Assembly (NCBI RefSeq): GCF_900116175.1
Contig: NZ_FPCH01000004.1
Location: 186,001 to 250,000 of the forward strand
Reading direction: 5' to 3'
DNA: 64,000 nt
Origin: Hyphomicrobium facile
GTDB taxonomy: Bacteria; Pseudomonadota; Alphaproteobacteria; Rhizobiales; Hyphomicrobiaceae
Each line of letters opens with the position of its first letter. Position 1 is the stretch's first letter. The notes under the pieces are model-generated. The model saw only the letters and a program-made list of their open reading frames with translations, was not told where the DNA came from and made no database searches. This document shows, piece by piece, positions 4,702-47,913 of the stretch. Made by a program: the position numbers and the translations under genes.

Positions 4702-4992
4702 TTATTTCATCTGGTTCTTTTCCTGAGTGGTGATCGACTGGCTAGGCCCTGTCTGCGACGAATCCGGCAGCACATCAGGGGCCGCCGAATTGTTCATCTG
4801 GTTCTGTTCCTGTTGGGGAATCGACTGGCTGGGCCCTGTCTGCGATGAATCCGGCAGCACATCAGGAGCGGCCGAATTATTCATCTGGTTTTTCTCCTGC
4901 TGCTCAACGGACTGCGCGTACGCCGGTGAGACGCCAAGCAGTGCAACGGCGACTAAAATCGCCAGCACCGAATGCTTGCTGATGATCGTCAT
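4702..4992 (-). CDS. Small secreted protein with tandem 29-residue repeats
   Basis: A 96-residue protein starting at ATG 4992 behind a GGAG Shine-Dalgarno. Residues 1-27 form a clear signal peptide (LAILVAVALLGVSPAYA, cut after AYA). The mature part is two almost identical 29-residue units built on EKNQMNNSAAPDVLPDSS and QTGPSQSI, with a third partial unit at the end. It is hydrophilic, rich in Asn, Gln, Ser and Pro, has no Cys, and looks disordered. I recognise no family; a periplasmic or extracellular role is inferred from the signal peptide only. Confidence 0.7.
   Translation of the reverse strand: MTIISKHSVLAILVAVALLGVSPAYAQSVEQQEKNQMNNSAAPDVLPDSSQTGPSQSIPQQEQNQMNNSAAPDVLPDSSQTGPSQSITTQEKNQMK
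4733..4906. repeat. 87-bp tandem duplication inside the small secreted protein gene
   Basis: Two copies of an 87-base unit start at 4733 and 4820 and differ at a handful of bases, most silent. The unit is an exact multiple of three, so copy number can change without breaking the frame. Confidence 0.85.
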
Positions 4993-5363
4993 GAAATGTG
5001 ACTCCAAAAATCAATCATCTTCGGGGATTCCGCGACATCAAAAACGAGCATCCCGTCGGACGCTCAAAGCGACCCGGTCGACATCGTGTCAGGATCGAAG
5101 GATCCTTCTAGCGGCCGTTCGTTGATGGAAGTTCTCGAAAACGCCGACAAGACGTCTCGAACTGGATGATTTGATCCGTCCACGGCATAGATGGGTTGGT
5201 CCCGCGTCACGCGAATTCGGGCGGCGCAATATTGCGCGCGCACCCGCCAGCTTGGTTGCAGAATGCTCGCGTTCGCCGAGCGAAGCTGGTCTTGGCGAAG
5301 CAAAGGTGCATGATGCCTGTCTAAAAGCTAAGCCGCAGCGGGCCGGCGCGCACCGGGGGACCA

Positions 5364-6751: not shown

Positions 6752-6985
6752 ATGGCGACAACGCTTATCGAATTGATCGTCCTGTTCCTGTACCCCCTCG
6801 TTTTATCGGCCATTGCCGGGATTATTTTCAGAGCCGCAATGACCGGACGAGACGGCATTTCTGAAGTCGTCGAAGCCTTGATCCATACAAATGGGCTCGA
6901 GGAGCGCGCAAAACGCGCCACAGGCTTCTCCCAAAATACAAACGGTGAAAGGCCACTCAATGAAAAAAATGCGTCTCGGCAATAG
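6752..6985 (+). CDS. Small single-helix membrane protein, unknown
   Basis: From ATG 6752 a 77-residue protein reads MATTLIELIVLFLYPLVLSA with a single hydrophobic segment near the N-terminus (about residues 5-25), then a hydrophilic charged tail. It overlaps the start of the downstream YceI gene by 26 bases in another frame, which suggests translational coupling if real. The Shine-Dalgarno is weak (GGAAG). No family is recognised. Confidence 0.4.
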   Translation: MATTLIELIVLFLYPLVLSAIAGIIFRAAMTGRDGISEVVEALIHTNGLEERAKRATGFSQNTNGERPLNEKNASRQ

Positions 6986-7649
6986 CCGTCGCCAGAGTAA
7001 TGCCGAAACCCAAGACCTATTGGGCGAGATCGAACTCTCAAGACGCGCGTCGTCACTCAAAGCGGCGGCATCTTTGCGAATGGCATGTCTTGCACTGCTT
7101 GCCGCAGAACTGACAGTCGCCGGTGCACCGGCAGTTGAGGCCCGTCGCTTTGAATTCGACCAGCGGCGAACGGAGGTTCGTTTCGCTTATAAGATGGCTT
7201 ACGCGACGCAGCGTGGCCGCTTCACGAAGGTCAGCGGCACACTCGACTATGACGAAGCCGCCCCTGGAAAGAGCAAGGTCAGCGCCTCGATCTCCGCTGC
7301 GAGCCTCACGACCGGCGAAGACTTCATCGACAACGAGTTGAGAGGCGCGGATTTCTTCAACGTTGAGCGCTCGCCCGTCATCGCCTTTAAGAGCGTCGGG
7401 GTCCGAACAGGCTCGCCGACGGCCGCGGAGCTTTTGGGCGAGATCACGGTCAACGGCATCACCAAGCCGGTGACGCTCCAGGTCAGCATCGAGCAACACG
7501 ACGATCCCGCACTCAAGCACGACGCCGGCGCGCGCAGATTTATCGCCAAAACGCGCATTCAGCGCAGCGCATTCAACATGACGAACTACCAATCGATGGT
7601 CGACGATGACGTCGACATCGAGATCGACGCCATCGCCCGGCCTAGATAA
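6960..7649 (+). CDS. YceI family lipid-binding-type periplasmic protein
   Basis: A 229-residue protein starting at ATG 6960. A charged N-terminus of about 35 residues leads to a hydrophobic signal segment (ACLALLAAELTVAGAPAVEA) and then a YceI lipocalin-like domain: FEFDQRRTEVRFAYKM, RGRFTKVSGTLDYDE, DNELRGADFFNVERSPVIAFKS, LLGEITVNGITKPVTL and FIAKTRIQRSAFNMTNY. YceI proteins bind isoprenoid chains such as polyprenyl quinone-like molecules in a beta-barrel. The unusually long N-terminus before the signal is odd and could indicate a later true start. A strong terminator follows. Confidence 0.88.
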   Translation: MKKMRLGNSRRQSNAETQDLLGEIELSRRASSLKAAASLRMACLALLAAELTVAGAPAVEARRFEFDQRRTEVRFAYKMAYATQRGRFTKVSGTLDYDEAAPGKSKVSASISAASLTTGEDFIDNELRGADFFNVERSPVIAFKSVGVRTGSPTAAELLGEITVNGITKPVTLQVSIEQHDDPALKHDAGARRFIAKTRIQRSAFNMTNYQSMVDDDVDIEIDAIARPR

Positions 7650-7735: not shown

Positions 7736-9421
7736 TCAGAACTTGCTGCGCAGCTCCGTACGGACCCCGAAATTATCTTCGGCCCCTTCCTGGATCTGAT
7801 AAGTCGCATCGGCGCGGAACAGCCACGACCTGGTGAGCGGGATCTGATAGCGAGCGCCGAAGCCGTACTGTGCGCCCTTGGGACCTATATTGTCATTCTC
7901 GAAGGGCTGCACCGTCGCCACCTCGAAGACGATCTGCTGATCCAGATTGAAGAGATACTGCACGCCAAGCGCGCCGCCGAAGGTATTGGAGGCCGTGTCG
8001 TCGAGCTTCGGGTAGCCCGTCAGGGCGTCGGTCTCGAAGTTGATGCCGACGTTCTTCAGTATGCCCGCGTTGTTGCCATCGACCAGGGGCTCGGGGTTCC
8101 CAACGCCAACAAAGAAGTTCGCGTATGGAAGAAGCGTGCTCGGCAAAGGCGTGATCAAGCTGTTCTCTGAAATGAGGGCAACGCCGTCGCCATTTCCGCG
8201 GCCATCCTCCCCGAAGTTCGCGAACAAGCGGGTCGAGTTTGAGATCGTGTTGGCATAGCGCCGAGTATATGCGGCCGTCAGGAAATGCTGCTCGACGCCG
8301 TCCTGAACACCGGTGCCCTGTAGAAAGCCATAACCCGCTTCGACATAGCCGTTGAAAGCGTCGGCGAAGGCCGTGACGCCGAAGAGGTTGGCATTGTTGT
8401 TGTCGACTTTGCCGTTTGCATTCACGAAGCTGGCGTTGTCGATGTTGTCGAAGCCCGCGAAGAAGGTAATGTCGAAGTTGGAGAGACCGAGTGCCGCCGA
8501 ATTCCGCGCGGGCAGCGTCACCGCACCACCCAGGATCGCGTCATTCGCCCAGATCCCGTTCTGCAGGAACAGTGGGAAGAGACCGACGGTGAAGGGCAAG
8601 TCGAACGAGGCGTGCTGTCCGGTCATGCCGGAATAAATGGAACCCGCGTCACCCTCGAAGTACAGAATCTGCGGAGTGAAATCGAACTCACCGTTGAACT
8701 TCTGATCGCCATCGCGGCCGCCGAACTCGAAGCGAGTAAATTTCGCGTTGCCGTCCTGAAACGGCGTGAAGAACGCGTGGATGCGTTCTGTTGCCGTGAG
8801 CTTGAAATCGACGTCGAGATTCAACCGCGTCGCGACCTGCGCGATATCCTTGCCGTTATTGCGATTGTAGGCGATGGCTGTCCGCCAATCCCCGTAGACG
8901 GCGAGCCCCGGAAGCAGCGGGTTCAATTTCCCGAGGACCGTGCTGCTCTCGTCGTATATTCCCGAGGTGTATTGCTCGCGGCCAATCTCGAGCAGCGGAC
9001 GCGGCGGCTCGACTGCGGTTTTCCCGCCATAGATGTCGGCTTGTTCCTCGGAGTCGTACGCGTGTGTGTACTGCGGATCGGAGCGGAAGGCGCTCTCGGT
9101 TGGTTTTGCTTTTTTGGGAGTCTTCTTGCCCTCTTCTGGTTTCGCGTTCGATTTGTCCGCGTCGCCGACATCGGCGCCGAGGTACTGCTTTGCAACGATT
9201 GTCTCGTTGTAGCGTTTCCCTACGGACTGGGACGCGGCTGGAGACTCGCTGGACAAAGTCGTAATCCAGCTCTCGTCTTTGCCGGTCTCGGCGCCGCTTT
9301 CACGGGGTTCAGTTTTTGCGGTCGTGCCGGACATCGTCAGATAGCTTCCGGCCATCAGAACAATAGCAGCAGTCGTCACACTCGTTCGGTATCGAAGGTT
9401 GCCCTTCGCATCGCAGGTCAT
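7736..9421 (-). CDS. Predicted outer-membrane beta-barrel protein next to multiheme cytochromes
   Basis: A 561-residue protein with an N-terminal signal-like segment (TTAAIVLMAGSYLTMSG, about residues 17-33), a charged low-complexity region to about residue 110, then repeated amphipathic strands such as TRLNLDVDFKLTATERIHAFF, FEFGGRDGDQKFNGEFDFT and GFGARYQIPLTRSWLFRADA. It ends in ELRSKF: a C-terminal Phe is the typical outer-membrane insertion signal. I do not recognise it as MtrB/PioB, which are longer and carry an N-terminal CxxC. It lies behind the pentaheme cytochrome gene on the same strand (125 bases apart), which suggests a shared job in moving electrons across or to the outer membrane; this is inference. 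Confidence 0.65.
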   Translation of the reverse strand: MTCDAKGNLRYRTSVTTAAIVLMAGSYLTMSGTTAKTEPRESGAETGKDESWITTLSSESPAASQSVGKRYNETIVAKQYLGADVGDADKSNAKPEEGKKTPKKAKPTESAFRSDPQYTHAYDSEEQADIYGGKTAVEPPRPLLEIGREQYTSGIYDESSTVLGKLNPLLPGLAVYGDWRTAIAYNRNNGKDIAQVATRLNLDVDFKLTATERIHAFFTPFQDGNAKFTRFEFGGRDGDQKFNGEFDFTPQILYFEGDAGSIYSGMTGQHASFDLPFTVGLFPLFLQNGIWANDAILGGAVTLPARNSAALGLSNFDITFFAGFDNIDNASFVNANGKVDNNNANLFGVTAFADAFNGYVEAGYGFLQGTGVQDGVEQHFLTAAYTRRYANTISNSTRLFANFGEDGRGNGDGVALISENSLITPLPSTLLPYANFFVGVGNPEPLVDGNNAGILKNVGINFETDALTGYPKLDDTASNTFGGALGVQYLFNLDQQIVFEVATVQPFENDNIGPKGAQYGFGARYQIPLTRSWLFRADATYQIQEGAEDNFGVRTELRSKF

Positions 9422-9546
9422 AAGGAAGCTCCCACTTCATGCCCCTGGCTCGTGCGTTCGAGTTTCAGGAGACTTCAGAGAGGCTTCGGACCCGCTATTT
9501 TGGCCCCTTGGCGGGACCAAATCCGAAACACTCGGCTCTTTGATTT

Positions 9547-11430
9547 TTATCCTTTCACGTCGACATCGACGGCGAAGTCATGGAAGTTCATGATCCGCTC
9601 GTTCATGCTCTGCTCCATGGCCCTGGTGGCACCGACGAAGCGCATGAAATAGATAGGCTCGGCACGGCTACGCATGCGGAACGCAAGGCGATATTTGCCG
9701 GGCTTTTTGATCAACTTTCCAGGTACCGAATATTTGGCCACCTTCTCCCCTAGCGGCGCCAGAGAATGGTTCTCCATGCGCACGAGCGGCGGATGATTGA
9801 GAACCGTGGTCGGGATTTGCGGCGGACGAAGGTGCGGCAACTGATCGATATCGAAGTTTACCGGCAGGTACATCTCCCGGTCCGTGCCCTTGACGTTGGT
9901 CGTCAGGAATTTGGTTTGAAAATTCACCAGCATTTGATCGGTGTCGATGCGGCCAGCCGCGACGTCCAAACTATGTAGATCCGCCATGTCCCCGTTGCTG
10001 TCGACGTAGCCCGACTCCCAGATGTTCTTCCCATCAGGATCGACGAGGGCGACGTTCACCCAAAGCTGCGGTTGCGCACCGAGCGAGCCGGACGGCAGGT
10101 TGTGCCCCGTATTGACGTTCTTGATCTTGTAGGAGAACGCCAGCTCTTTACCGATCCGCGGTGTGCCCTGGACATAGGGACCGTCGACCTTGCTGCTGTT
10201 CTCCATCACCTCGCGCCGGAGCTTGTCACGCTCGTCGAGCTTCTTCAGATTTTCATCGATGATCTCACGGGCATCTTCGCGATCGCTCGCATCGGCCCAT
10301 CGCTTTGGAAAATCGACCTTGATCTTTCCAGCCGCAACCTTGTCTTCGAACTTCCGGCTACCCCAGCCGGCGCGCCAGTCGAACTCCAACCAGTCCTTGA
10401 TACTCGTGGCCTGCGCCTTCGTGTTGTGCGGGAAGATACCAGGGTGCGCGATAGAATAACCCGGACCGATAAACCGGTGGTTTGCGTGCTTGCGCCCGGG
10501 GTTGACCTCTTTGCCGCCGACGATCGCAGAAGGCGCGGTCGCATACCCGTCGGGCTTCCCCGGCGTTTTGCCCATATGGCAATCCTGGCAGCTGACGCCG
10601 GCTTTGCGTGCCGGGCTGTCGCGATATTGATCCCAGACGATTTCCAACTTGATGCCGAGGTTGACCGCAACCTGATGGCAGCTGACGCAGAACTCCGACT
10701 TGGTGATCTGATCGTTGGTGATCATGCCCTCGTGAATGTCGTTGCCGCGCCCGTCGGCACCCGTTTTGACGGAGTAGGTATCCTTGTTGGCGAGCACGTC
10801 TTTGATGACGCTCTTTTCGCCGCTGCCGTAGACAGGCTCGTAGATTTTTCCGGGCTCGATCCGGCGCTCGCCGTTGACCTTGCCGTACTGCTCCTTGACC
10901 CGGTGACAGGTGATGCAGGTTACGCCCTCGCGCGAGATCTGACTGCGCTCCCAGAGTGGCGCTTCGCGGGCTTCGCCGATCTGCGTGCCGACCTGTTGAT
11001 GGCATCGCACGCAAAAAGTGCCGACCGTTCCTTGAGTGAGCGATTGGAACTTCTGCTCGAACTTATGGAACATCGGAGATATCGACGCATAGGCATGCTG
11101 CGACGACGACCACTCTTCATAAATCTGCTTGTGACAGGCGCCGCATTGCGCGGCTGTAGGATATAGAGACTCGTCGACGCCCTGGCCGCTGTGCGGATCG
11201 GACTTGGACTTTACGATCTCGATGCTCGTCCCTTTGGCTGCCGCGCTGCCGCCGGCAGCTTCGCTATTCTGCGCGAATTTCAGTCCCGAACGACTCTGTT
11301 GAGTTTGACTTTGTGCCTCGGCGAATGAGCGAGACCCTGCGACGGCATCTTGCCGAGAGAACGTAACGCAGACCAGCATCGTGCCTGCCCATGCGCAGGC
11401 AAGCAGTGAAACACGCGAAACTTGTACCAT
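9547..11430 (-). CDS. Pentaheme c-type cytochrome, cytochrome c554-like
   Basis: A 627-residue protein with a signal peptide (LLACAWAGTMLVCVTFSRQDAVA, cut near residue 32) and five CxxCH heme sites at about residues 96, 140, 172, 248 and 281 (CGACH, CVRCH, CITCH, CVSCH, CQDCH). The heme part matches the cytochrome c554 / multiheme family. From about residue 350 a heme-free region follows, with a GHNLPSG motif near residue 440 and predicted beta-strands, which may be a sandwich domain for partner binding. It should be periplasmic or at the outer membrane. The divergent gene across an AT-rich gap is the 2Fe-2S reductase; the next gene on its own strand is the beta-barrel. Confidence 0.85.
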   Translation of the reverse strand: MVQVSRVSLLACAWAGTMLVCVTFSRQDAVAGSRSFAEAQSQTQQSRSGLKFAQNSEAAGGSAAAKGTSIEIVKSKSDPHSGQGVDESLYPTAAQCGACHKQIYEEWSSSQHAYASISPMFHKFEQKFQSLTQGTVGTFCVRCHQQVGTQIGEAREAPLWERSQISREGVTCITCHRVKEQYGKVNGERRIEPGKIYEPVYGSGEKSVIKDVLANKDTYSVKTGADGRGNDIHEGMITNDQITKSEFCVSCHQVAVNLGIKLEIVWDQYRDSPARKAGVSCQDCHMGKTPGKPDGYATAPSAIVGGKEVNPGRKHANHRFIGPGYSIAHPGIFPHNTKAQATSIKDWLEFDWRAGWGSRKFEDKVAAGKIKVDFPKRWADASDREDAREIIDENLKKLDERDKLRREVMENSSKVDGPYVQGTPRIGKELAFSYKIKNVNTGHNLPSGSLGAQPQLWVNVALVDPDGKNIWESGYVDSNGDMADLHSLDVAAGRIDTDQMLVNFQTKFLTTNVKGTDREMYLPVNFDIDQLPHLRPPQIPTTVLNHPPLVRMENHSLAPLGEKVAKYSVPGKLIKKPGKYRLAFRMRSRAEPIYFMRFVGATRAMEQSMNERIMNFHDFAVDVDVKG

Positions 11431-11914
11431 CGCCCCCAGTCCAGACTGCCCATACCCGTTGGGCAGAACTCAAAATTGCATTGATCGCGCGAAATGCAGT
11501 CCGATTTATGCGATCCCCCGTTGGAAACAAAACAATAGGGGAAACGGGGCAGCGATATGGCCAGATTTAATAGCGGACGAAATTGAATATAGTTAATTCG
11601 GAATCGAAAAAACGTTTCTATTCCACTCGATGTGAATATAAAAGGAATTATGCTCATCTAAATAATTATAGACATCGCCGACAAGCCATTGAAGTAGCGA
11701 CACGTTTTAAGTCAGCGCGTTCTTGTCGTAGCGAGCAAAACATAGATGGCAGCCAGCGTTCCGCTTAATGCATAATTCGAGTTTATTCGCAGAAATAATT
11801 CGCCTTCAATCCATGTTTCATTTTATTCGATCCGCCGGGGGCCATTGTCTAACCATAATAGATGGATAGCTCCCCAATTCCGAATTCCTTGAAACGGCAA
11901 GAATTGAGCACGTG
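11431..11914. promoter_or_regulatory. AT-rich divergent intergenic region between pentaheme cytochrome and reductase
   Basis: About 480 bases with no gene. The middle (11560-11890) is much richer in A and T than its surroundings, and both flanking genes are transcribed away from it, so it must hold both promoters. I could not identify a convincing consensus for a known regulator. Confidence 0.5.
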
Positions 11915-12991
11915 ATGGCAGGTAGCCATAAAATTACGATCGATGGGAAAAGCTTTGAGGCACGCCCTGGTGAGTTGCTGCTAGACGCAGCTCTGAATAA
12001 CGGCATCGACCTGCCTTACGATTGCCGCGCCGGACACTGCGGCACATGCTGCGTTCGGCTGGTTTCGGGCGACGTCGAAGGCGGCGAAGGCTCCGAGCCC
12101 GGCATCGTTCATGCGTGCCAGTGCCGCATCGCCAGTAACGCGGTCCTGGAGAGCAACCGCCAGACAAATATCCGAGCCGTCGAAGGCGTGTTGAGTTCGC
12201 TGCGTCCCCTGTCCTCCGAGGTGATCGAGGTCGGCATCAAGACTGACCGCGCGCTGCCGTATCATGCTGGACAGTATGCGCAGGTGTGCTTCAAGGGCTA
12301 TCCGCGCCGTCCCTTCAGCATCACTCATCCCCTGCGCGGCGATCCGGACACGAGTTCTATCTGGTTTCATGTCCGTCGCATGAAGGGCGGCCGTGTCACC
12401 TCGTCGCTCGGCAAGCGCATCACGCCGGGACATCGAGTGACTTTGACCGGGCCGTACGGCTCGGCACATTTGCGGCCCAATCTGGAAGGCCGCCTCATTC
12501 TCGTCGCCACCAATACCGGCTTCGCACCGATCTGGTCGATCGCCGTCGCCGCTTTGCGAGAGAGGCCGGAGCGAAGGATGATGATCATCGCCGGCGGCCG
12601 TACCCTCGAGTCTCTATATATGGGCCAAGCCCTCGTGAAGCTCGCGCGTTTCCCCAACGTCCTCGTCGTGCCTGTCTGCAGTTCGCCGCAGGCTTTGCCG
12701 AACGCCATCATGCCCGGCCGGCCGACCGACTATCTGCCGCGGCTGTTGCCGACCGATGTTCTCTACGCCTGCGGCGCGCCGGGAATGGTCGAGTCAGTCA
12801 AAAACATCGCCGCGCATGTTGGTGCGACCTGCCATGCGGATCCGTTCCTGCCGAACGCCGATGGCACGAGCGAAGGCGGCGTTCTGACCCGGGCGATAAA
12901 AAAACTCGCCGTGCCCCTCAGCCGCCCGAAGCGTAATCCGGATTTCGATCGCTCCCGCGACCTCGCAATCACGTTCGATACGAGCGCTTAA
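11915..12991 (+). CDS. 2Fe-2S ferredoxin / flavin / NAD(P)H oxidoreductase
   Basis: A 358-residue three-domain reductase. Residues 1-85 are a plant-type ferredoxin with CRAGHCGTC and a fourth Cys in VHACQCR. Residues 90-190 form an FAD-binding domain with the RRPFSITHPL flavin motif (RxYS type). Residues 190-300 carry the NAD(P)H domain (LILVATNTGFAPIWSIA, CGAPGMVESV). This layout is that of MmoC, phenol hydroxylase reductase and similar enzymes that pass electrons from NAD(P)H to one-electron acceptors. There is no oxygenase nearby; instead tetraheme, diheme b and decaheme genes follow in the same direction, suggesting it feeds or drains that chain. A GTG lies one codon upstream of the ATG chosen. 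Confidence 0.85.
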   Translation: MAGSHKITIDGKSFEARPGELLLDAALNNGIDLPYDCRAGHCGTCCVRLVSGDVEGGEGSEPGIVHACQCRIASNAVLESNRQTNIRAVEGVLSSLRPLSSEVIEVGIKTDRALPYHAGQYAQVCFKGYPRRPFSITHPLRGDPDTSSIWFHVRRMKGGRVTSSLGKRITPGHRVTLTGPYGSAHLRPNLEGRLILVATNTGFAPIWSIAVAALRERPERRMMIIAGGRTLESLYMGQALVKLARFPNVLVVPVCSSPQALPNAIMPGRPTDYLPRLLPTDVLYACGAPGMVESVKNIAAHVGATCHADPFLPNADGTSEGGVLTRAIKKLAVPLSRPKRNPDFDRSRDLAITFDTSA

Positions 12992-13020
12992 GGCTCGCCG
13001 ACGCAAGGCTCGACACCACT

Positions 13021-14079
13021 GTGGTTCTAGATCGTTTGAGTTTCAGTTCTTCGCTTCCCGGCACACGGCGCCTTTCTCGCCTCGCCTACTTTCTCTCCGC
13101 CTCGCTGATCATGTGTTTTGCCGCGTGTGGCGCGGCCCTATCCGATGCCGCGCAGGTCGTCGGGCCGAATGCCTGCGCCGAGTGCCACAAGCAGGAAACC
13201 GAAGCCTGGAAGACAACGCACCATTTCAAAACGTTTCGAGATCTTCCGCGCAACGGCGAAGCGAAGAAAATCGCCGATAAAATGGGAGTGAGACGCATCA
13301 AATCGGAAGGGTTGTGCGTCACTTGTCACTTCACGGTTCAGCAGAAGGACGACGGCAAAGAGCCTGTCGCAGGCATCTCCTGCGAGTCTTGCCACAGCGC
13401 GGGCAAAGACTGGATCAAAGTTCACAGCAGCTACAGCGGCAAGACCGCAAAGACAGAGACGAAAGCCGAGGCAGCAGCACGCTGGAAACTTGCCGATTCC
13501 AAAGGGATGATAAGGACCAGCGCAATCTACCAGCTGGCGAAGAACTGCTACGGCTGCCACGTCGTGCCGCAAGAAGAACTCGTGAACAAAGGCGGCCATC
13601 GCGCCGGCAGCGCCTTCGATCTGGTTTCCTGGTCGCAGGGCGAGGTGCGCCACAATACTTGGTATTCCAAAGGCAAGGAGAACGCCGCCGCGAACACGAC
13701 GCGCAGGCGGATGCTCTATCTTGTCGGCCTTGGCGTTGAACTCGAGACGTCCTTGCGCGGCGTCGCTAAAGCCACGGTGAGAAAGCCTTACGCGTTCTTC
13801 ATGGCCCAGCGCGTTGACCGGGTACGAAAGCAACTTGCCGCTGCGGCGAAAGCAGCGCCGAACGTGCCAGAAATCGCCAAGTTGGTCGAATATGCCCATT
13901 CGGCATCGCTGAAACTCAACAATGAGCGCCTGCTGACCGCTGCTGCCGATAGCGTTTCCAAGCTGCTCACGGGCCTCACCGAAAAATACGACGGCAGCAC
14001 GATGGCCGGGCTCGATGCGCTCATTCCGGGACCGGAGAAGTACGTGGGGACAGTGAGGCAACCGAGTGCAACCAACTGA
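13021..14079 (+). CDS. Tetraheme cytochrome c, cytochrome c554-like
   Basis: A 352-residue exported cytochrome with four CxxCH sites at about residues 52, 99, 121 and 176 (CAECH, CVTCH, CESCH, CYGCH). Cytochrome c554 of nitrifiers is also a tetraheme protein, and the AWKTTHH segment after the first site fits that family. The N-terminus has a hydrophobic export segment, LAYFLSASLIMCFAACGAA; the FAAC part is close to a lipobox, so it may be a lipoprotein, but this is uncertain. The C-terminal half is heme-free and helical. It starts at GTG 13021, 29 bases after the reductase stop, so an operon is likely. Confidence 0.82.
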   Translation: MVLDRLSFSSSLPGTRRLSRLAYFLSASLIMCFAACGAALSDAAQVVGPNACAECHKQETEAWKTTHHFKTFRDLPRNGEAKKIADKMGVRRIKSEGLCVTCHFTVQQKDDGKEPVAGISCESCHSAGKDWIKVHSSYSGKTAKTETKAEAAARWKLADSKGMIRTSAIYQLAKNCYGCHVVPQEELVNKGGHRAGSAFDLVSWSQGEVRHNTWYSKGKENAAANTTRRRMLYLVGLGVELETSLRGVAKATVRKPYAFFMAQRVDRVRKQLAAAAKAAPNVPEIAKLVEYAHSASLKLNNERLLTAAADSVSKLLTGLTEKYDGSTMAGLDALIPGPEKYVGTVRQPSATN

Positions 14080-14155
14080 TCTCGGCGCGATGTCGGCATC
14101 AGCCGCCTGACACGCACGATGGGGGAATGACGATGAATGATTTTGGCGGGCCGCC

Positions 14156-15061
14156 GTGAAATTCGTGGCGCGGCGCGCGGCCAACGGGTCTGTGGGAGTA
14201 CGCTCTCCCGGCTCGATGCGAGGGGTCAGCGGCCAGGCAATCACAGCGATACTGATCGTCGCCATCTCCGGCGGCCTATTCTGGCTTGTCGAAATCTACA
14301 CCTCTGCACTTCGCGACCCACGCTATCTCGACGGCTGGCTTCTGGCCGGTGGAATGAGCCTGCAGCTCTTCTTTCACGTCGCCACCAAAACGGGCCGGCT
14401 ATCGCCAAAATCCATCATGCGGTGGCGGACGTTCCATATTTTCGTGGGCTACCTGCTGGTCGCAGCATTCCTTTCACATTCGAATTTCGCCCTTCCGAAT
14501 TCGGCTTTCGATTGGACGTTGTGGACAGGCTTCGTGCTCGTAACTCTGAGCGGGCTTTTCGGCACCTATCTGGCTTGGTCGCTTAAGACCAAGAGCCGCG
14601 TCGACGAGCGCATTGGGTATGACCGCATTCCCGCGCGCGTCGCTGAACTCGCGCAAGATGTGAAAGCAGTCGTTGCAATGCCCGATCCGTCTGCCGACGC
14701 GATCGCGTTGCCCGCGGCGCCCTATGACGCCTGGATCACAGATCTCTACACCAACCACCTGCAGGACTTTTTCGAGGGGCCGCGCAATTTCTCGTCCCAT
14801 CTGGTCGCTTCGCAACGCCCGCTCAAGCGGCTGATCGACGAAATCAATCACCTCGCGCCCTACGTTGACGCTCAGGGCCAGGAAAAGCTTTCCAGAATCT
14901 GGAACCTGGTAACCGAAAAAGATGCGCTCGATTTCGCGCGCGTCCATTTCGGGCTCACCAGGGCCTGGCTATTTGTACATGTGCCCGTCACCTACGGGCT
15001 GTTCGTGCTCTCGGTGCTGCACGTCCTCGTCGTCTACTCCTACGCGTCGGGGGCACTGTGA
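14156..15061 (+). CDS. Integral membrane diheme cytochrome b-like protein
   Basis: A 301-residue protein with membrane helices at about 29-48, 59-78, 92-110, 120-140 and 270-296, and a soluble loop of about 120 residues between the fourth and fifth. Helix 3 has His94 and His108, helix 5 has His275 and His289; both pairs are 14 apart, the spacing that binds two stacked b hemes in cytochrome b and related quinol or ferric reductase proteins. A further His74 lies in helix 2. I infer that it carries electrons across the cytoplasmic membrane, exchanging them with quinone or with the periplasmic multiheme cytochromes encoded on either side. It starts at GTG and its TGA overlaps the ATG of the next gene. 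Confidence 0.7.
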   Translation: MKFVARRAANGSVGVRSPGSMRGVSGQAITAILIVAISGGLFWLVEIYTSALRDPRYLDGWLLAGGMSLQLFFHVATKTGRLSPKSIMRWRTFHIFVGYLLVAAFLSHSNFALPNSAFDWTLWTGFVLVTLSGLFGTYLAWSLKTKSRVDERIGYDRIPARVAELAQDVKAVVAMPDPSADAIALPAAPYDAWITDLYTNHLQDFFEGPRNFSSHLVASQRPLKRLIDEINHLAPYVDAQGQEKLSRIWNLVTEKDALDFARVHFGLTRAWLFVHVPVTYGLFVLSVLHVLVVYSYASGAL

Positions 15062-17439
15062 TGTGGCGCTTTTTCTGGCCGCAAGAGAGCGACAGTCCGA
15101 AGCCTCCGAGTTTTCGGCGCGACCGTCTGGCGCTGCTCGTGGCGCTCGTCACGGCTGCCTCCACGTTCACCGCTTTCTTTCTGTCGAAGGGCACGCAGTT
15201 CCTCATGCCCGGGCCGATGACGAGCGCGCATGCGTCGATTGAAAATTGCTCTTCCTGTCATAGCAAAAGCGGTGACGGCAAGTTGAGTTGGATTCACGGC
15301 CTTGTTGCGGGCAACCCGATCGCCGACAGCAAGGCCTGCATCACCTGCCACAAGATGCCGGAAACGGCCTTCTTCCCGCACGGTGCTTCGGCCGATGTCC
15401 TGCTAGCGAGCACCAAGCGGCTGACCAAGATTGCCGCGACTACGCCCGAGCCGCTATCGGCGCGCGCCCAAAACGCAGCCTTCCCGGCCCACGATGTCGT
15501 TTCGCGCGGCCTTACTTGCGCGACCTGCCACCAGGAGCATAAAGGCGCCAATTTCAAACTGGGCAAGATCTCCAACGAGCAGTGCCGCTCGTGCCATGTC
15601 GTGAAGTTCGACAGCTTCGACGGCCATCATCCGCAATTCGAAAACTATCCGTTCGATCGGCGCACGCGGATCGTCTACGATCATGCCAGCCATTTCGATA
15701 AACACTTTCCCGAAGTGGCGAAGAAGGACGCAGCAAAGCGCATTCCGGACTCCTGCTCGACCTGTCACGACAGTCAGAAGGACAGGCGAGTCATGGCGGT
15801 CGCGCCATTTGAGAAGACCTGCACCGGCTGCCATCTCGACCAGATCACAGGCAAGGAGCGGGCGACCGGTCCGAAAGGCATCGCCTTCCTCGCGCTCCCT
15901 GGCCTCGACCTCCCAACCCTGAAGCAGAAAAATGCCGCGATCGGCGAATGGCCGGAGGCGTCTGAAGCCGGGCTGACGCCCTTCATGAAGGTGATGATCA
16001 GCCGGACCGAAAAGGGCCGCGCGCTTATCAACACCGTGGACAAATTGAACCTCCAGGATCTGGCCAATGCAAGCGACGACCAGATAACGGCGGTGAAGGA
16101 GCTGGCCTGGGAGATCAAGAGGCTGCTGTATGCGCTCATCTCCGGCAAGGCTTCGGACGTCCTCGGCGACCTCAACATCGGCAGCGGCGGAAAGCTGAGT
16201 GCGTCTCTCGTTGCCGATCTGACCGCGAGCATACCGCGTGATGTCGTCGTCGGCGCCCAGCAGCAGTGGCTGCCCAATCTCGCGAGCGAAATCACGGGCG
16301 GTCCGGTGCCCGCCAATCCGCAACCCGTCGCCAATGATCCCGAACCGAGCAATTCGAGCGCGGCGACCACCGAGGAGCCCGCTGCCGCAGATACGACGAC
16401 GCCTTCGGAAGAACCTCAGTCATCGGCCGAGACTGAGGAGAAGGAGGCACCGACTGAAAATGCCGGCAGCGCCAAATACGATCCGCCCGCATGCCTCATG
16501 CGCGTTCTTGGTCAGTGCCTCATGCCCGCGGGACAGGAGAAGAAGGCTGAAGGCGCCAATCCCGAAGCAGCCACCGGAAAGGACGATAGCGCCAACGCGA
16601 AGTCGAACGGCGGCAAGGAAAAACGCGCCGGCAACCTGCCCGAACCGATGAGAGCAGGCTTGCAGGACGCACGACCGGCGGAGACTTCTCAAGCGGCGAG
16701 CGAAAAGGCGGCGAGCCAATCCGACGAACTCCTCCGCCCCACGGAGGAAGAGCTTCGCGAGATAAAGTCGCGCGGCAATGACCGCGTCAGAGCGCCAGAA
16801 CCGCGCGCAATTCCATCGCAGTCGCAAGCCGCGTCCGCATCTCCGGCGAAGACCGCGCCTGTGATCAGCATAGAAAGCAATATCGATCCGGAGAGCTGGG
16901 CCGAATACGGCGGCTGGTACCGCCAGGATTATGCGATTTTCTATCGCCCAGTAGGCCACAAGGACAAATTCATCTACTCATGGCTCTTCCTCACCGGGCC
17001 ACAGGCACCGAAGGGTGACCGAAGCCCCGCAGCAGCCGTCTTCGATTTCCTGACGAGCAAGGACGCTCAAGGATCATGCACGAAGTGCCACAGCGTGGAC
17101 GACATTCAAGGCAAAGGACGCGTCGTCAACTTCTCACCGGCATCGACTGAGACGAAACAGGGGCGCTTTACGACTTTCATCCATGAGCCGCATTTGGGCG
17201 TCGTGCAAAACCGCGGCTGCCTGACCTGCCACAGCCTCGACAAGAGCCGCCCGTACCTGAAGAGCTACGAGCAGGGCAATCCGCATAACTTTGCCTCCAA
17301 TTTTGGAGCCGTGAGCAAGGACCTTTGCCAGAGCTGTCACGCCACCAAAAAGGTGCGCCAAGACTGCCTCACCTGCCACAAGTATCATGTGAATGGCGTG
17401 ATCACGCCGATCATGCAGACGAAGATCCCGACGCAGTAG
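15061..17439 (+). CDS. Decaheme c-type cytochrome with long acidic linker
   Basis: A 792-residue protein with an uncleaved-looking N-terminal membrane segment (about 24-42) and ten CxxCH sites. Six are in the first part (about residues 63, 93, 153, 175, 232, 254) and four near the C-terminus (about 673, 720, 756, 769). Between them lie a helical region and about 185 residues of low-complexity sequence rich in Ala, Glu, Ser, Pro and Thr (about 415-600), with two Cys outside any heme motif near 478 and 486. Extra His residues (DGHHPQF, HASHFDKH, HEPHLG) are candidates for distal ligands. ATG 15061 overlaps the upstream stop as TGATG. It is probably anchored to the membrane facing the periplasm and takes electrons from the diheme b protein. 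Confidence 0.85.
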   Translation: MWRFFWPQESDSPKPPSFRRDRLALLVALVTAASTFTAFFLSKGTQFLMPGPMTSAHASIENCSSCHSKSGDGKLSWIHGLVAGNPIADSKACITCHKMPETAFFPHGASADVLLASTKRLTKIAATTPEPLSARAQNAAFPAHDVVSRGLTCATCHQEHKGANFKLGKISNEQCRSCHVVKFDSFDGHHPQFENYPFDRRTRIVYDHASHFDKHFPEVAKKDAAKRIPDSCSTCHDSQKDRRVMAVAPFEKTCTGCHLDQITGKERATGPKGIAFLALPGLDLPTLKQKNAAIGEWPEASEAGLTPFMKVMISRTEKGRALINTVDKLNLQDLANASDDQITAVKELAWEIKRLLYALISGKASDVLGDLNIGSGGKLSASLVADLTASIPRDVVVGAQQQWLPNLASEITGGPVPANPQPVANDPEPSNSSAATTEEPAAADTTTPSEEPQSSAETEEKEAPTENAGSAKYDPPACLMRVLGQCLMPAGQEKKAEGANPEAATGKDDSANAKSNGGKEKRAGNLPEPMRAGLQDARPAETSQAASEKAASQSDELLRPTEEELREIKSRGNDRVRAPEPRAIPSQSQAASASPAKTAPVISIESNIDPESWAEYGGWYRQDYAIFYRPVGHKDKFIYSWLFLTGPQAPKGDRSPAAAVFDFLTSKDAQGSCTKCHSVDDIQGKGRVVNFSPASTETKQGRFTTFIHEPHLGVVQNRGCLTCHSLDKSRPYLKSYEQGNPHNFASNFGAVSKDLCQSCHATKKVRQDCLTCHKYHVNGVITPIMQTKIPTQ

Positions 17440-17549
17440 CGACGTATGTTCTACTCCGATCAAACCGATTGCCGACGAGACATCGGCATCGGCGCCTCAT
17501 CATCATTTTTTGTCGCGCGAAACCATTGTGCCGATGCCTCATTTTGCGA

Positions 17550-17588
17550 CCCATTCCTCGGCGAAAAAAAAACTTCGCGAGGAATGGG
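17550..17588 (+). promoter_or_regulatory. Perfect inverted repeat sequestering the ribosome binding site of the TPR gene
   Basis: An 11-base perfect inverted repeat (17550-17560 and 17578-17588) encloses a 17-base loop with a run of nine A. The right arm contains the GAGGA Shine-Dalgarno and stops three bases before the ATG at 17592, so in RNA the stem would hide the ribosome site. No T-run follows, so a terminator is unlikely. Confidence 0.6.
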
Positions 17589-17591
17589 ACA

Positions 17592-18479
17592 ATGACACAG
17601 CACTATATGATGGTCGCCACGGGAACAGCCGCCACGCTGCTGGCGACAGCGCTACTTCTCTTTCGTGTTAAATTGCACGGTCACCGGCCGGCAGTGGCGC
17701 TCGTCAGACGCTGGATCGCGGTGAGCTTTCCCTCATCCGGTCTCGTATTGCTTCCGCTCGCTGCGATCGCCGCCCTTTGTTTTGCAGGCGTCGCTCAGAA
17801 CGAGTTGAGCTCTTCCAGCGCCGGAGCATCCCTGAGTGATACGCCGTCCGCGCCGCATTCGGCATTCGCCTCTGACGATGACTCGAATGCGTTGGAGTCT
17901 CTGCGAGCATACGCAAATTCGATAGACGCGCATCCGGAAATGGGGGCGGCTCAATCGCCCGCTTCAAACGCGGTCGATTTGCCTGACGTCGATACGATGA
18001 TCGTGAAGCTCGTGACGAGGCTCGAAAAAGATCCGAACGATGTGAACGGCTGGAAAATGCTCGGATGGTCTTACCTCAATACGGATAAGCCAGACGATGC
18101 GGCCAAGGCCTACGAAACCGCCCTGAAGCTCGACCCCGGCAATGTGGAAATCAAGAAAGCCCTCGAGCAAATAAAGTCGGCGCACGTCGCGGCAAGTAAT
18201 TCGCCGTCCGCTTCAACATCAGAGCCTGCCACAGGGGACACCGCTTCTCAGCGGAACGACATGATCCACGGCATGGTCGACAATCTCGCCGCCCGGCTCG
18301 AAGCCTCTCCGAACGACGAGAACGGCTGGATGCGCCTTATGAGTTCGCGCATGACCCTCGGCGAGAAGGACGCTGCCAAAGCAGCACTGACGAAAGCCCT
18401 CGCGGCCTTTGCAAACGACGCCGCTGCAAAGACCCGTCTGACCTCCGCAGCGCGCGAACTCGGCATCGACGCCGAATAG
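17592..18479 (+). CDS. TPR protein resembling cytochrome c assembly factor CcmI/CycH
   Basis: A 295-residue protein with two N-terminal membrane helices (about 5-21 and 41-62), a linker, and two tetratricopeptide regions: LVTRLEKDPNDVNGWKMLGW with the following KAYETALKLDPGN, and LAARLEASPNDENGWMRL near the C-terminus. This order (two helices, then periplasmic TPR) matches CcmI/CycH, which holds apocytochrome for heme attachment. Location right after three multiheme genes supports a dedicated assembly role. It is shorter than typical CcmI and no other ccm genes are here, so another scaffold function is possible. Start at ATG 17592 behind a hairpin; a longer in-frame reading upstream overlaps the decaheme gene and has no family similarity. 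Confidence 0.7.
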   Translation: MTQHYMMVATGTAATLLATALLLFRVKLHGHRPAVALVRRWIAVSFPSSGLVLLPLAAIAALCFAGVAQNELSSSSAGASLSDTPSAPHSAFASDDDSNALESLRAYANSIDAHPEMGAAQSPASNAVDLPDVDTMIVKLVTRLEKDPNDVNGWKMLGWSYLNTDKPDDAAKAYETALKLDPGNVEIKKALEQIKSAHVAASNSPSASTSEPATGDTASQRNDMIHGMVDNLAARLEASPNDENGWMRLMSSRMTLGEKDAAKAALTKALAAFANDAAAKTRLTSAARELGIDAE

Positions 18480-18913: not shown

Positions 18914-19576
18914 ATGCCTTTGATCGTGTCATTCGTCAGTCAAAAAGGCGGCGTCGGCAAAAGTACGCTCGCCCGAGCCCTGGCCGCAGTCGGCGCGACG
19001 GGCAAGCTGAAGGTCAAGCTCGCAGACCTTGATATCCAACAGCAGACTTCGGTCCGATGGGGAAAGGCGCGTAAGCAGAGAGGGACTGCCTCTCCCATCG
19101 ACGTCGGAGCCTTCCGATCATTCGACGATGCGCTCGCAGATAGTGAAGCTTTCGATCTCATCATCGTCGATACACCGGGCCATACGAGTCCATCGACAGG
19201 CACGGTCGCCCGCGCCTCTCACATGGTCGTGGTGCCGACGAGCGCGACCATTGATGATTTGTATCCGACTGTTCTGCTCCTCCGCGCCCTTGAGGAAATA
19301 GGAATTCCTCAAAGCCGCCTGGCAGTCGCCCTCTGCCGTGTATTGGAACCAAGCGAGGAGAAAGTTGCGAGGAACTACGTTGCTGCGGCGGGATACGAAT
19401 TATTGCCCGGGTTCATCCCAGAACGCGCATCGTACCGAAATGCGCAGAACCGTGGACAAGCGCTCACCGAAACCATCGACGGAACCGAAAACGAGTCGGC
19501 GGATGCGCTCATAGAAAGTCTGCTAAGAAAAATAGCCGGACAATCTGATAGAACGCGAAATTGGAGCGGCGACTGA
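18914..19576 (+). CDS. ParA-like P-loop ATPase (orphan)
   Basis: A 220-residue protein with the deviant Walker A KGGVGKST at residues 11-18, the Walker A' region VKLADLDIQQQTSV, and Walker B LIIVDTPGH. These are the features of ParA/Soj/MinD ATPases that position plasmids, chromosomes or protein complexes. There is no ParB or parS-like array next to it, and it is a short, HTH-less type, like those on plasmids and integrated elements. It may be a remnant of a mobile element or position another cargo. Start at ATG 18914. Confidence 0.85.
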   Translation: MPLIVSFVSQKGGVGKSTLARALAAVGATGKLKVKLADLDIQQQTSVRWGKARKQRGTASPIDVGAFRSFDDALADSEAFDLIIVDTPGHTSPSTGTVARASHMVVVPTSATIDDLYPTVLLLRALEEIGIPQSRLAVALCRVLEPSEEKVARNYVAAAGYELLPGFIPERASYRNAQNRGQALTETIDGTENESADALIESLLRKIAGQSDRTRNWSGD

Positions 19577-41449: not shown

Positions 41450-43234
41450 TTAGTAGATGTCGCGTTGATAGCGGCCGGCCTTCGTCAGCTCCTTGAGCTT
41501 CGCGCGGCCCGCCTCTTCATCGCCCTTCAGCGGTTCGGCAAGAACCTTGACGAGCGTCGCATCGACGTCCTTCGCCATGCCCTTCTCGTCGCCGCAGACG
41601 TAAATGTGCGCGCCTTCCTGCAGCCACGCATTGATGTCCGCTCGCCTTTCCCAGATGCGATGCTGGACATAGATCTTTTCCGGCTGATCGCGCGAGAATG
41701 CAACATCGATCCGAGAGAGATCGCCCGACGCCAGATAGTCCTGCCACTCGAGCTGATAGAGGAAGTCATTGGTGAAGTTCCGCTCGCCGAAGAAGAGCCA
41801 GCTCTTGCCCTTGGCGCCGTCCGCAATGCGCTCTTCGACGAAGCCGCGATAGGGCGCAACGCCTGTTCCCGCGCCGATCATGATGATCGGCGTGTGCCCG
41901 TCCGCCGGCAGACGGAAATGCCGGTTCGGCTTGACGTAGATGCGGCCCGTCTGGCCGATCCTGCGGCGCTCGCCGAGGAACGTCGAAGCTACGCCCTTGC
42001 GCTCGCGGCCATGTGATTGCCAGCGAACCGCGCCGACGAGAAGATGCGCTTCACCCGGATGCGCTTTGAGGCTCGACGCGACCGAGTAGAGCCGTCCCGG
42101 CAACGGCCGCAAAAGACCTGTCAGCTGTTCCGGGGTGAGCTTCTCCGGGTACGCCAGGAAAAGGTCGATGAGCTGCCGGTCGGAAGCAAACTTCGGATAA
42201 GCCTCGCCCTCGAGCAACGCCTTGACGTCGGCGCGCCCTGTCAGCTTCGCGTAGTTCTCGACGGCCGCTCGCGACAGCGTCGTGACGTCATAGGATTTCT
42301 GCAGCTTCAGGAACAGCGCGGCATCCGAACCGAGTCCGACAGCCTGCAGAAGATCATCAACGAGACCCGGATCGTTTTCCGGCAGCAGGCCGATCGCATC
42401 TCCCGGCTGATAGGTGAAAGCCGGATCGTCGAACGCGAATTCCGTGTGCCACGTTTCGCGCGTCGAGCCGCTGCCGTTCAAATTGACGAGCGCCGAGATC
42501 TCGGCTTCGAGCGGCTGCTCCGCGGTGAACTTGGGTTCGTCATCGTCGGCCTGCGGAAAGGCGCCGCCGAAATCGACATGCACGACCGTTCCGCCCGCAG
42601 CCTGCGTGTCTTCCGGTGCGAGCTTGGCAAGCGCACCTTCCGTCCACTCCGCAGCCTTCTTGGCATAATCGAGATCGAGATCGACGCGATCGAACGTCCG
42701 CACACCACCTAATTCTTCGAGCCGCTGATCGATGGCTTTGCCGATTGCGCAAAACTGTGTGTAGGCCGTATCGCCCAGCGCCAGAACCGCGAACCGAACG
42801 CCATCGATGCGCGGTGCCGCGTCGCTCATCAGCGCTTGATAGAAATCGACAGCGCGGGCGGGCGGATCGCCCTCGCCCCAGGTCGCGGCGTACACGACGA
42901 TGTTCTTCGCCTTGGCCAGCAGCGCCATATCGGCGTCGGCCATATCGAAGACCTTCGCGTCGAGACCGTGCTTCTGGGCGGCCTTCTTTGCCTTGCTTGC
43001 GAGGGCTTCGGAGTTACCGCTTTCGCTCGCATAGAGAATAGTGAGCGGCGCACGCGGCTTGGATGCCGGCACCACCTGGGCCATGCCGCCGCCTTGCGCG
43101 GCCTCGAAACCCGCGAAAAATCCGGCAAGCCACGAACGCTGCTGCGGAGTTGTCCGCGCAACCACTTTGTTCAACAGTTCGATGTCTTCCGGCAGAAAGG
43201 GCGCATTGCGCGGAAGCAGTGGGGTCGCGGTCAC
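41450..43234 (-). CDS. cysJ: Sulfite reductase (NADPH) flavoprotein subunit
   Basis: A 594-residue diflavin reductase: an FMN flavodoxin domain (LTILYASESGNSEALASKA, about 67-205), an FAD domain with LPGRLYSVASSL, and an NADPH domain (MIGAGTGVAPYRGFVEER, FFGERNFTNDFLYQLEW, HIYVCGDEKGMAKDV). It ends YQRDIY, the conserved C-terminus that covers the flavin. It carries electrons from NADPH to CysI. The start is GTG 43234 with GAGGAG eight bases upstream. Confidence 0.95.
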   Translation of the reverse strand: MTATPLLPRNAPFLPEDIELLNKVVARTTPQQRSWLAGFFAGFEAAQGGGMAQVVPASKPRAPLTILYASESGNSEALASKAKKAAQKHGLDAKVFDMADADMALLAKAKNIVVYAATWGEGDPPARAVDFYQALMSDAAPRIDGVRFAVLALGDTAYTQFCAIGKAIDQRLEELGGVRTFDRVDLDLDYAKKAAEWTEGALAKLAPEDTQAAGGTVVHVDFGGAFPQADDDEPKFTAEQPLEAEISALVNLNGSGSTRETWHTEFAFDDPAFTYQPGDAIGLLPENDPGLVDDLLQAVGLGSDAALFLKLQKSYDVTTLSRAAVENYAKLTGRADVKALLEGEAYPKFASDRQLIDLFLAYPEKLTPEQLTGLLRPLPGRLYSVASSLKAHPGEAHLLVGAVRWQSHGRERKGVASTFLGERRRIGQTGRIYVKPNRHFRLPADGHTPIIMIGAGTGVAPYRGFVEERIADGAKGKSWLFFGERNFTNDFLYQLEWQDYLASGDLSRIDVAFSRDQPEKIYVQHRIWERRADINAWLQEGAHIYVCGDEKGMAKDVDATLVKVLAEPLKGDEEAGRAKLKELTKAGRYQRDIY

Positions 43235-47243: not shown

Positions 47244-47455
47244 GGGTTGGTCAGGAACGACCGGCGAGCAATGTTCATTTAACCGAGCCTGAGCCCGCGC
47301 GCGCAGTGCAGCGAAATCGCATGGGATTTTTTTTTGCCCGGTGCGGCATTCTGTTCGGTCGCGGTTCAGAAAAAAAATGGCAACTTCCTGCCACTGAGCT
47401 ATGAGTTGGAGCGTTTCTAAAAATGCCACTCAGGCGAAACGGGAAGGAAAACGAA

Positions 47456-47812
47456 ATGCGCAAGTGGGTTCTGGCGATTGCAATGATCGCAGCAGTTCCG
47501 ACCGCTGCCATGTCCGCCGATGCGGATGCCGGCAAGACGGTCTTCAATAAGTGCAAGGCCTGCCATCAGGTAGGTAAGAACGGGGTAGGCCCTCATCTTG
47601 ACGGCGTCTTCGGCCGCGTTGCTGGAAGCCTGCCGGATTACAACTATTCGGATGCGCTGAAGAAGTCCGGCATCACCTGGGATGAAGCCTCGCTCGACAA
47701 ATGGCTGCAGGGTCCCGCCAAGGACGTCCCCGGCACCAAGATGATCTTCGCCGGCCTCAAGGATGAAGGCGACCGCGCCAACCTCATCGAATATCTCAAG
47801 ACGCTGAAGTAA
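47456..47812 (+). CDS. Class I c-type cytochrome (c2/c550-like)
   Basis: A 118-residue periplasmic monoheme cytochrome with a signal peptide (WVLAIAMIAAVPTAAMSA) and one CKACH heme site followed by GPHLDGVFGR, with the axial Met in TKMIFAGLKD near the end. This is the mitochondrial-c/c2 type. Directly behind pqqE, it may be the cytochrome that passes electrons from the methanol dehydrogenase cytochrome cL to the oxidase (a cytochrome cH role), which is inference. ATG 47456 follows GGAAGG. Confidence 0.92.
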   Translation: MRKWVLAIAMIAAVPTAAMSADADAGKTVFNKCKACHQVGKNGVGPHLDGVFGRVAGSLPDYNYSDALKKSGITWDEASLDKWLQGPAKDVPGTKMIFAGLKDEGDRANLIEYLKTLK

Positions 47813-47844
47813 TCAGAACTCGTCGTCTGAGTTCCGTTTAATAG

Positions 47845-47886
47845 AAAGCGCAGCGAAGATCGGATTCTTCGCTGCGCTTTTCTTTT
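47845..47886 (+). terminator. Strong Rho-independent terminator after the pqq-cytochrome block
   Basis: A perfect 15-bp stem (47845-47859 with 47866-47880), a 6-base loop and a T-rich tail TTTTCTTTTT. It lies 32 bases after the cytochrome stop. Confidence 0.95.
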
Positions 47887-47913
47887 TGCCCGCTGGAGCG
47901 TCACCGAGGTTCA

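Follow-up and report, generated by a model that had tools for sequence, protein, structure and literature searches.

A multiheme cytochrome locus of Hyphomicrobium facile matching PCC4 Subgroup I, and its possible role as an outward electron chain across the cell envelope

What process might employ nineteen c-type heme sites encoded beside a cytochrome b-like membrane protein, a flavin reductase and an outer-membrane barrel? The question is raised by a locus in a 64,000-nucleotide stretch of Hyphomicrobium facile DNA (contig NZ_FPCH01000004.1, positions 186,001 to 250,000), here termed the window, whose own numbering is used throughout. On both strands of the 64 kb, 24 CxxCH-type DNA sites are observed and 2.62 are expected; none of 100 shuffled sequences reached 24. 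Nineteen of the 24 fall in three open reading frames (ORFs), which carry 5, 4 and 10 sites, respectively. A sequence-only reading had held that no described system has this exact gene set and that an electron conduit in a methylotroph would be new. The first statement is contradicted by a paper from 2017 (PMC5566968), in which the candidate cluster is already in print as PCC4. The locus is PCC4 Subgroup I, of putative function, as judged by the same gene set, heme counts, inner-membrane protein motifs and genus. Its products are tentatively read here as an electron chain across the cell envelope that runs outward from NAD(P)H to a small acceptor.

PCC4, as described by He, Barco, Emerson and Roden (2017; PMC5566968), comprises a porin and three periplasmic multiheme cytochromes (4, 5 and 10 hemes), together with a conserved protein of the inner membrane and further redox proteins, and its hosts there are one Hyphomicrobium draft genome and four Zetaproteobacteria. 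The settings are Fe(II)-oxidizing Zetaproteobacteria, a Hyphomicrobium from a pyrite-oxidizing enrichment and drinking-water filter genomes. Subgroup I consists exclusively of Hyphomicrobium spp. and is without an Fe-S gene. The inner-membrane proteins display an SGXXG motif and two WX3HX13H motifs and are likened to quinone-active cytochrome b. Extracellular electron transfer by PCC4 is a hypothesis in that paper, with flow proposed inward to the quinone pool (He et al., 2017). A second paper mentions PCC4 (PMC13264449). The window locus shares with Subgroup I the porin, the three heme counts, both kinds of inner-membrane protein motif, the genus and a redox gene upstream of the tetraheme gene, as well as the lack of a separate 4Fe-4S gene; a Pfam scan of the window cluster finds no separate Fe-S (PF13247) gene. 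Comparison with the available published text, figures aside, does not find a difference in gene content. No functional test of PCC4 was found in the literature searched, most subscription journals being outside its reach. What is new here is a revised view of the barrel fold, the anchoring of the decaheme protein and the direction of electron flow, in all of which the interpretation differs from the 2017 account as far as its text is available, and a new domain in distant decaheme proteins.

The locus consists of two divergent units. The minus strand carries the pentaheme cytochrome gene (C5, 9547-11430) followed by the gene for the 561-amino-acid outer-membrane β-barrel (OMB, 7736-9421). The plus strand carries genes for a 2Fe-2S/FAD/NAD(P)H oxidoreductase (FNR, 11912-12991), a tetraheme c554-like cytochrome (C4, 13021-14079), an inner-membrane protein with likely two b hemes (CYB, 14156-15061), a decaheme cytochrome (C10, 15058-17439), whose gene shares its first 4 bases with the end of the CYB gene, and a TPR protein (17592-18479). 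By the ORF coordinates, the two units are separated by an intergenic region of 481 bases (11431-11911), where promoters would be expected.

The gene set is kept together in relatives, so that the sequence-only reading is not refuted on this ground. Among 46 other genomes of the family that match CYB, 40 were examined, 36 with a close CYB and four with a distant one (L030-L033). In 32 of the 36 close Hyphomicrobiaceae loci the six core genes are all found together, with order and orientation unchanged, and the remaining 4 are cut by contig ends. These synteny counts are from tblastn; a greedy ORF caller missed genes that lie under longer opposite-strand frames. The heme counts are equally stable: five CxxCH sites in all 35 loci with a C5 match, four in 39 of 40 C4 sequences (the exception, L051, is cut by a contig end) and ten in 37 of 40 C10 sequences (L031 and L039 are at contig ends, and L038 has a shorter open frame). 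CYB matches are present in 47 of 103 family genomes at E 1e-3, two of them near 1e-3, in 18 of 297 genomes of the order at 1e-10 and in 21 of 398 genomes of the phylum at 1e-5, with 14 of these at 1e-40 or better. Four of the seven weak phylum matches were examined (L136-L139), and all have another decaheme type. The nearest named relatives of CYB are in two Hyphomicrobium metagenome-assembled genomes (92% and 86% identical). For the alignments, 32 of 35 C5 candidates (40 of 43 in another set), 38 of 41 CYB and 37 of 44 OMB sequences were used; the histidine-conservation and co-variation sets exclude sequences with stops or odd lengths, and the histidine set also those with open ends.

The three multiheme proteins, whose 5, 4 and 10 sites were counted in the ORFs as the sequence-only reading had reported, display features of electron relays. 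C5 and C4 both match Pfam Cytochrome_C554 (C4 at 2.1e-17). A relation to cytochrome c554, one of the families named for checking, stands at the domain level but not at the family level: C4 scores 44.7 bits against the Nitrosomonas cytochrome c554 model NF043010, below its cut-off of 400, and all NCBIfam matches of C5 and C4 are below the curated cut-offs. Beyond the heme motifs, C5 has six conserved histidines (112, 233, 318, 329, 443 and 486) for its 5 hemes, C4 has four (68, 135, 193 and 211) for 4 hemes and C10 has eleven for 10 hemes; they are present in nearly all of the 34-35 family and 9-26 distant sequences compared. Others are conserved within the family alone (H122, H315, H546 and partly H335 in C5, and H67 in C4). 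There are therefore enough conserved histidines for all 19 hemes to have a second one as ligand, as is expected of relays, which would favour a wire. C5, the most conserved protein of the set (median distance 0.227), begins with a hydrophobic segment that contains an AVA site and ends with a beta domain that bears a GHNLPSG motif; the window protein lacks a lipobox. A fold search with the C5 model yields no match at E 0.001; the best, at 2.5e-3, is to beta-sandwich domains and is uninformative, and the heme part is poorly modelled. C4 has an N-terminal signal-like segment and is probably periplasmic.

The decaheme protein, which matches Pfam Paired_CXXCH, has a different architecture. A hydrophobic segment at about residues 24-42 is followed by a 6-heme part, a long spacer and a 4-heme C-terminal part. 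The segment precedes heme 1 in all 61 C10 sequences, and heme 6 is 269-520 residues (median 410) away from heme 7 in the 59 that have ten hemes. Ala, Pro and acidic residues abound in the stretch ahead of the 4-heme end, which may serve as a tether. The sole A-x-A-like site near the hydrophobic segment of the window protein is AHA at 57-59, which includes the conserved H58. Cleavage there is unlikely because it would remove H58, a likely heme ligand. C10 thus probably retains its N-terminal anchor in the inner membrane.

The histidine spacing of cytochrome b, which had been recognized from the sequence, is confirmed in CYB by two WX3HX13H motifs (W90/H94/H108 and W271/H275/H289), and histidines 94, 108, 275 and 289 are invariant in 38 of 38 sequences. 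The SGXXG motif is present as SGLFG at 132-136. A Kyte-Doolittle scan shows five hydrophobic stretches, two of them overlapping; the PCC4 inner-membrane protein is described with five transmembrane helices (He et al., 2017). CYB has no significant Pfam match: those to DUF4079 and b561 are not significant and the FRD domain (PF01794) is not among the matches at E up to 1, so that the checks suggested for the cytochrome b561 and ferric reductase families yield no significant match.

FNR is the reductase that had been proposed, with Pfam matches to Fer2 (2e-16), NAD_binding_1 (4.6e-7) and FAD_binding_6 (5.2e-6). It is BenC-like, at 110 bits against a cut-off of 430, and is probably cytoplasmic since it has no N-terminal hydrophobic segment. 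Of 36 sequences, 30 keep the flavin motif, 35-36 the NAD motifs and 35 the 2Fe-2S motif. FNR is two genes ahead of CYB, with C4 alone between them, in each of the 32 close family loci that are uncut. Ferric reductases and NADPH oxidases likewise pair a cytoplasmic NAD(P)H reductase with a diheme b protein, and their electrons move outward. To bring electrons from the periplasm via such a b protein to NAD+ is uphill and against the membrane potential unless it is coupled to proton flow, and outflow from NAD(P)H is downhill. Because FNR is conserved in one gene run with CYB, because the arrangement is that of ferric reductases and NADPH oxidases, and because the energetics of the reverse are unfavourable, outward flow is put forward here as a tentative proposal; on this analysis it appears no less likely than the inward flow of the published model.

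The outer-membrane barrel inferred from the sequence is consistent with an AlphaFold2 model, in which OMB is a predicted porin-like barrel; no Pfam family, OprD (PF03573) included, matches the protein. The model was built from a 37-sequence alignment and has a mean predicted local distance difference test score (pLDDT) of 70.2. Its N-terminal part, to about residue 165, is of low confidence, and from residue 169 it displays 19 strand segments, some of them short, a strand number that holds only as modelled. The best VIA-align match is OpdQ (Z 27.2, 320 residues aligned, root-mean-square deviation 2.8), and the top Foldseek matches are MOMP, chitoporin and Occ channels. OprD/Occ channels are 18-stranded. 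The barrel is thus predicted to have an OprD/Occ-type fold, a likeness of fold only: PDB profile searches with OMB yield nothing credible, and no sequence homology is found between OMB and a Nitratiruptor OprD porin. The earlier view that these proteins are not of the MtrA/MtrB type agrees with the absence of any match to MtrB_PioB (PF11854) in the genome, a weak control in that 0 of 14 control genomes are over the cut-off. MtrB-type barrels are not among the VIA-align rows listed, which carries no evidential weight. MtrB has 28 transmembrane regions (He et al., 2017). From the model, OMB is judged smaller than MtrB and too narrow to sheathe a multiheme wire, and would suit a small substrate.

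From these parts we infer an order and direction of electron transfer, the ligation of the hemes, a substrate and a role for the barrel, as follows. In the cytoplasm, FNR would accept electrons from NAD(P)H on its FAD and 2Fe-2S centre. CYB would then carry the electrons over the inner membrane by its two b hemes, much as in NADPH oxidase or ferric reductase but with the parts on separate proteins. Membrane-anchored C10 would receive them, its 4-heme end reaching outward on the long spacer, and would pass them to tetraheme C4 and on to pentaheme C5. In the periplasm or at the outer membrane, C5 may deliver them to a small acceptor such as ferric iron or one of its chelates, and OMB would be an OprD-type channel that admits the substrate or releases the product. 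Trans-envelope electron transfer thus remains the best reading of the locus, as had been proposed, and the likeness to porin-cytochrome systems stands; the conduit proper is put in doubt by the barrel model and by a decaheme protein that looks anchored in the inner membrane.

Co-variation of the proteins has been compared by the mirror-tree approach, as raw correlations without a significance test or species-tree correction and with L030-L033 left out. By pairwise distance, FNR, C4, CYB and C10 correlate with one another at Spearman 0.67-0.85, and OMB with C5 at 0.57, a value no higher than a mere neighbour reaches. For scale, YceI, the product of a neighbouring gene, correlates with the six core proteins at 0.43-0.61 (14 sequences) and the TPR protein at 0.19-0.47. 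The four plus-strand core proteins thus stand out clearly as a unit, to which OMB and C5 are only loosely tied.

Several observations weigh against the outward chain. C5 and OMB correlate with the other four proteins at only 0.21-0.39, below the 0.48-0.61 of the neighbour YceI; a single continuous chain is not proven because of this weak co-variation, although the low C5 values may be noise, C5 being so conserved. The conserved histidines represent possible, not actual, heme ligands. Sites of the A.[AGS] type are near the hydrophobic end in 10 of 61 C10 sequences. The evidence for the fold of OMB is a model built on 37 aligned sequences, with a mean pLDDT of 70, and this model matches Campylobacter MOMP (Z 26.3) and AlgE (24.8) nearly as well as OpdQ; the C5 model is poor (pLDDT 51). 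By PDB profile search, no solved structure resembles CYB in sequence, and CYB could have a quinone site. The authors of PCC4 propose the opposite direction, into the quinone pool, and the hosts of the cluster include Fe(II)-oxidizing Zetaproteobacteria (He et al., 2017).

These last points belong to the published alternative, in which electrons from a donor outside the cell, for instance Fe(II) or Mn(II), pass via the porin and the periplasmic cytochromes to CYB and the quinone pool, with FNR as a side entry or in another role. The likening of the inner-membrane motifs to quinone-active cytochrome b and the provenance of the hosts, from Fe(II)-oxidizing Zetaproteobacteria to the pyrite-enrichment Hyphomicrobium and the drinking-water filter genomes (He et al., 2017), speak for this hypothesis, and it is regarded here as quite possible, if less probable than the outward chain. 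It leaves unexplained, however, the NAD(P)H reductase in one gene run with CYB in all 32 uncut close loci, the quinone site that it requires of CYB is putative, and the barrel is predicted to be of an OprD-like fold. That same predicted fold, narrower than MtrB, also speaks against a wire-in-barrel of the MtrAB/PioAB kind, where one multiheme protein inside OMB would span the outer membrane. The porin gene does adjoin a multiheme gene here, as it does in all known porin-cytochrome clusters (He et al., 2017), but with no MtrB_PioB match and a hydrophobic C10 N-terminus that looks uncleaved, such a conduit is disfavoured, as far as a predicted structure can tell, and is considered distinctly improbable.

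Relatives of C5 point to another alternative, that C5 exchanges electrons with iron entering via OMB, in uptake or detoxification and not in respiration. Six plasmid records were matched and five examined, the other (H3) having the same coordinates as H2. In four of the five (two Shinella, Nitratiruptor and Aeromonas; L064-L067) an FTR1 permease gene is directly 3′ of the C5 relative, a multiheme and mostly pentaheme cytochrome, and in three an imelysin gene is upstream. The Shinella protein P0001 is homologous to C5 over nearly its full length (hhalign E 4.4e-31, 394 columns). The FTR1-linked pentahemes of Shinella and Nitratiruptor, and more loosely that of Aeromonas, share with C5 the five hemes and, as GHNLPTG, the beta domain; they differ in that they are beside an iron permease and usually imelysin, and in Shinella HZN7 and Nitratiruptor the annotation shows no adjacent C4, CYB or C10. 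Elsewhere the association is not seen: tblastn detects no FTR1 around any of 14 weaker C5 relatives (contexts of 3.9-11 kb), there is none in the 4.4-kb locus of one further relative, and neither FTR1 nor imelysin is annotated in the Granulicella stretch of the fifth plasmid record; the PCC4 loci themselves were not searched for FTR1. A search for FTR1-linked pentahemes was positive in 2 of 398 phylum genomes. The weaker relatives are mostly pentahemes of about 405-465 amino acids, with five CxxCH sites in 11 of 14 ORFs, and one is very close to PDB 5ze8, a pentaheme cytochrome c552. This structure shares five hemes with C5 (C5 profile E 1.9e-11; hhalign E 1.8e-17 to a close relative), but the match is limited to the heme part and the gene contexts are other ones. 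Since FTR1 is present in four of the five plasmid records but absent from the 14 contexts, the further locus and the Granulicella annotation, the iron link is taken as a hint, not a conclusion, and iron handling as an unlikely rival to the outward chain. Still less credit is given to a catalytic multiheme system for nitrite, hydroxylamine, tetrathionate or sulfite metabolism. C5 and C4 do have weak matches to cytochrome c554, MccA and nitrite-reductase models, but all NCBIfam matches are below the curated cut-offs and there is enough histidine for every heme, with no evident open site; on histidine conservation and low family scores, a catalytic role is judged very unlikely.

Distant relatives of the cluster resemble Subgroup II, an assignment that is this analysis's own and not that of He et al. 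(2017). They share C4, CYB, C10, often C5 and OMB, plus FNR, which has here the layout of a flavohemoprotein-like reductase with a C-terminal Fer2 domain; FNR of either type is seen in 21 of 30 distant loci. They differ by a cyclic nucleotide monophosphate (cNMP)-binding/4Fe-4S protein, found in 18 of the 30 and typically encoded between C4 and CYB, and usually by a decaheme protein with a Cys-rich N-terminus. The latter, scored as at least 4 Cys before the hydrophobic segment, is present in 18 of 26 distant sequences vs 0 of 35 close family sequences; L030, a distant family member, has a shorter stretch with 3 Cys. In L125, L117, L129 and others the stretch comprises about 100 residues with 8 or more Cys, often with C..GPD. 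Two examples show no Pfam match, and the domain is not mentioned in the available text of the 2017 paper (PMC5566968). Both the cNMP/4Fe-4S protein and the Cys-rich domain are present in 16 of the 26 distant loci and neither in 6; L119 and L132 have the protein without the domain, and L131 and L133 the domain without the protein. This parallel occurrence suggests that the two work together. A cNMP/Fe-S protein and another decaheme type are also encoded at L137, a locus with a weak CYB match; at 13388-17512 (minus strand) it encodes a 1375-amino-acid protein with 10 CxxCH sites that is related to ExtM of a selenite/tellurite operon (E 7.9e-20, far below the cut-off).

At the edges of the window cluster are genes of less certain standing. 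The TPR protein, which had been called assembly-like, matches TPR_CcmH_CycH (1.2e-16) and is of the CcmH/CycH type, cytochrome c maturation-like. It is an accessory component of variable position: among the 36 close family loci, tblastn matches it in 29 (some matches being short) and clustering in 23; as judged from the sequence, an ATG at about 17592 is a more likely start than a TTG within the C10 gene. On the other side, a YceI-like protein (6891-7649, plus strand; Pfam YceI 5.8e-36) adjoins the cluster. It is a frequent neighbour of uncertain membership, with matches at 14 of the 36 close family loci and, among the distant ones, at L125. A ParA-type partition ATPase is encoded at 18914-19576, just past the cluster. 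Elsewhere in the window, a small secreted-looking protein at 4702-5007 (minus strand) has near-identical repeats with QMNNSAAPDVLPDSSQTGPSQS; a flavodoxin/FAD/NAD(P) reductase at 41453-43234 (minus strand) has the layout of a sulfite-reductase flavoprotein or P450-reductase; and radical SAM/SPASM, GHMP kinase and ATP-grasp genes are found together at 46083-52051, perhaps as a biosynthetic cluster.

PCC4 has been a candidate iron-oxidation conduit since 2017 (PMC5566968), and the direction of flow would decide whether, in Hyphomicrobiaceae and their relatives, it is a marker of iron oxidizers or of NAD(P)H export. Concrete predictions follow from the anchored decaheme protein and the OprD-like barrel, and a direct, testable contact between the cNMP/4Fe-4S protein and the Cys-rich domain is suggested by their occurring nearly in parallel.

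With MtrAB, MtoAB and PioAB the locus shares an outer-membrane barrel encoded beside multiheme cytochromes, and differs by the lack of an MtrB_PioB match, another predicted barrel fold and a decaheme protein that is probably anchored in the inner membrane. With NADPH oxidases and ferric reductases (FRE/NOX) it shares an NAD(P)H-FAD reductase and a membrane diheme b protein with two HX13H motifs (PMC5566968), and differs in having these parts on separate polypeptides, a 2Fe-2S centre, a further 19 c hemes and a CYB without a Pfam FRD match. A bolder and more speculative conception, which we consider rather unlikely as a whole, is that PCC4 is no porin-cytochrome conduit but an NAD(P)H-powered, envelope-spanning reductase. 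In it, a split NOX/ferric-reductase core (FNR and CYB) would feed a tethered multiheme relay, and a small substrate would be reduced, or in some hosts oxidized, via an OprD-type channel; in Subgroup II, the cNMP/4Fe-4S protein and the Cys-rich domain would form a second, perhaps signal-gated, cytoplasmic entry.

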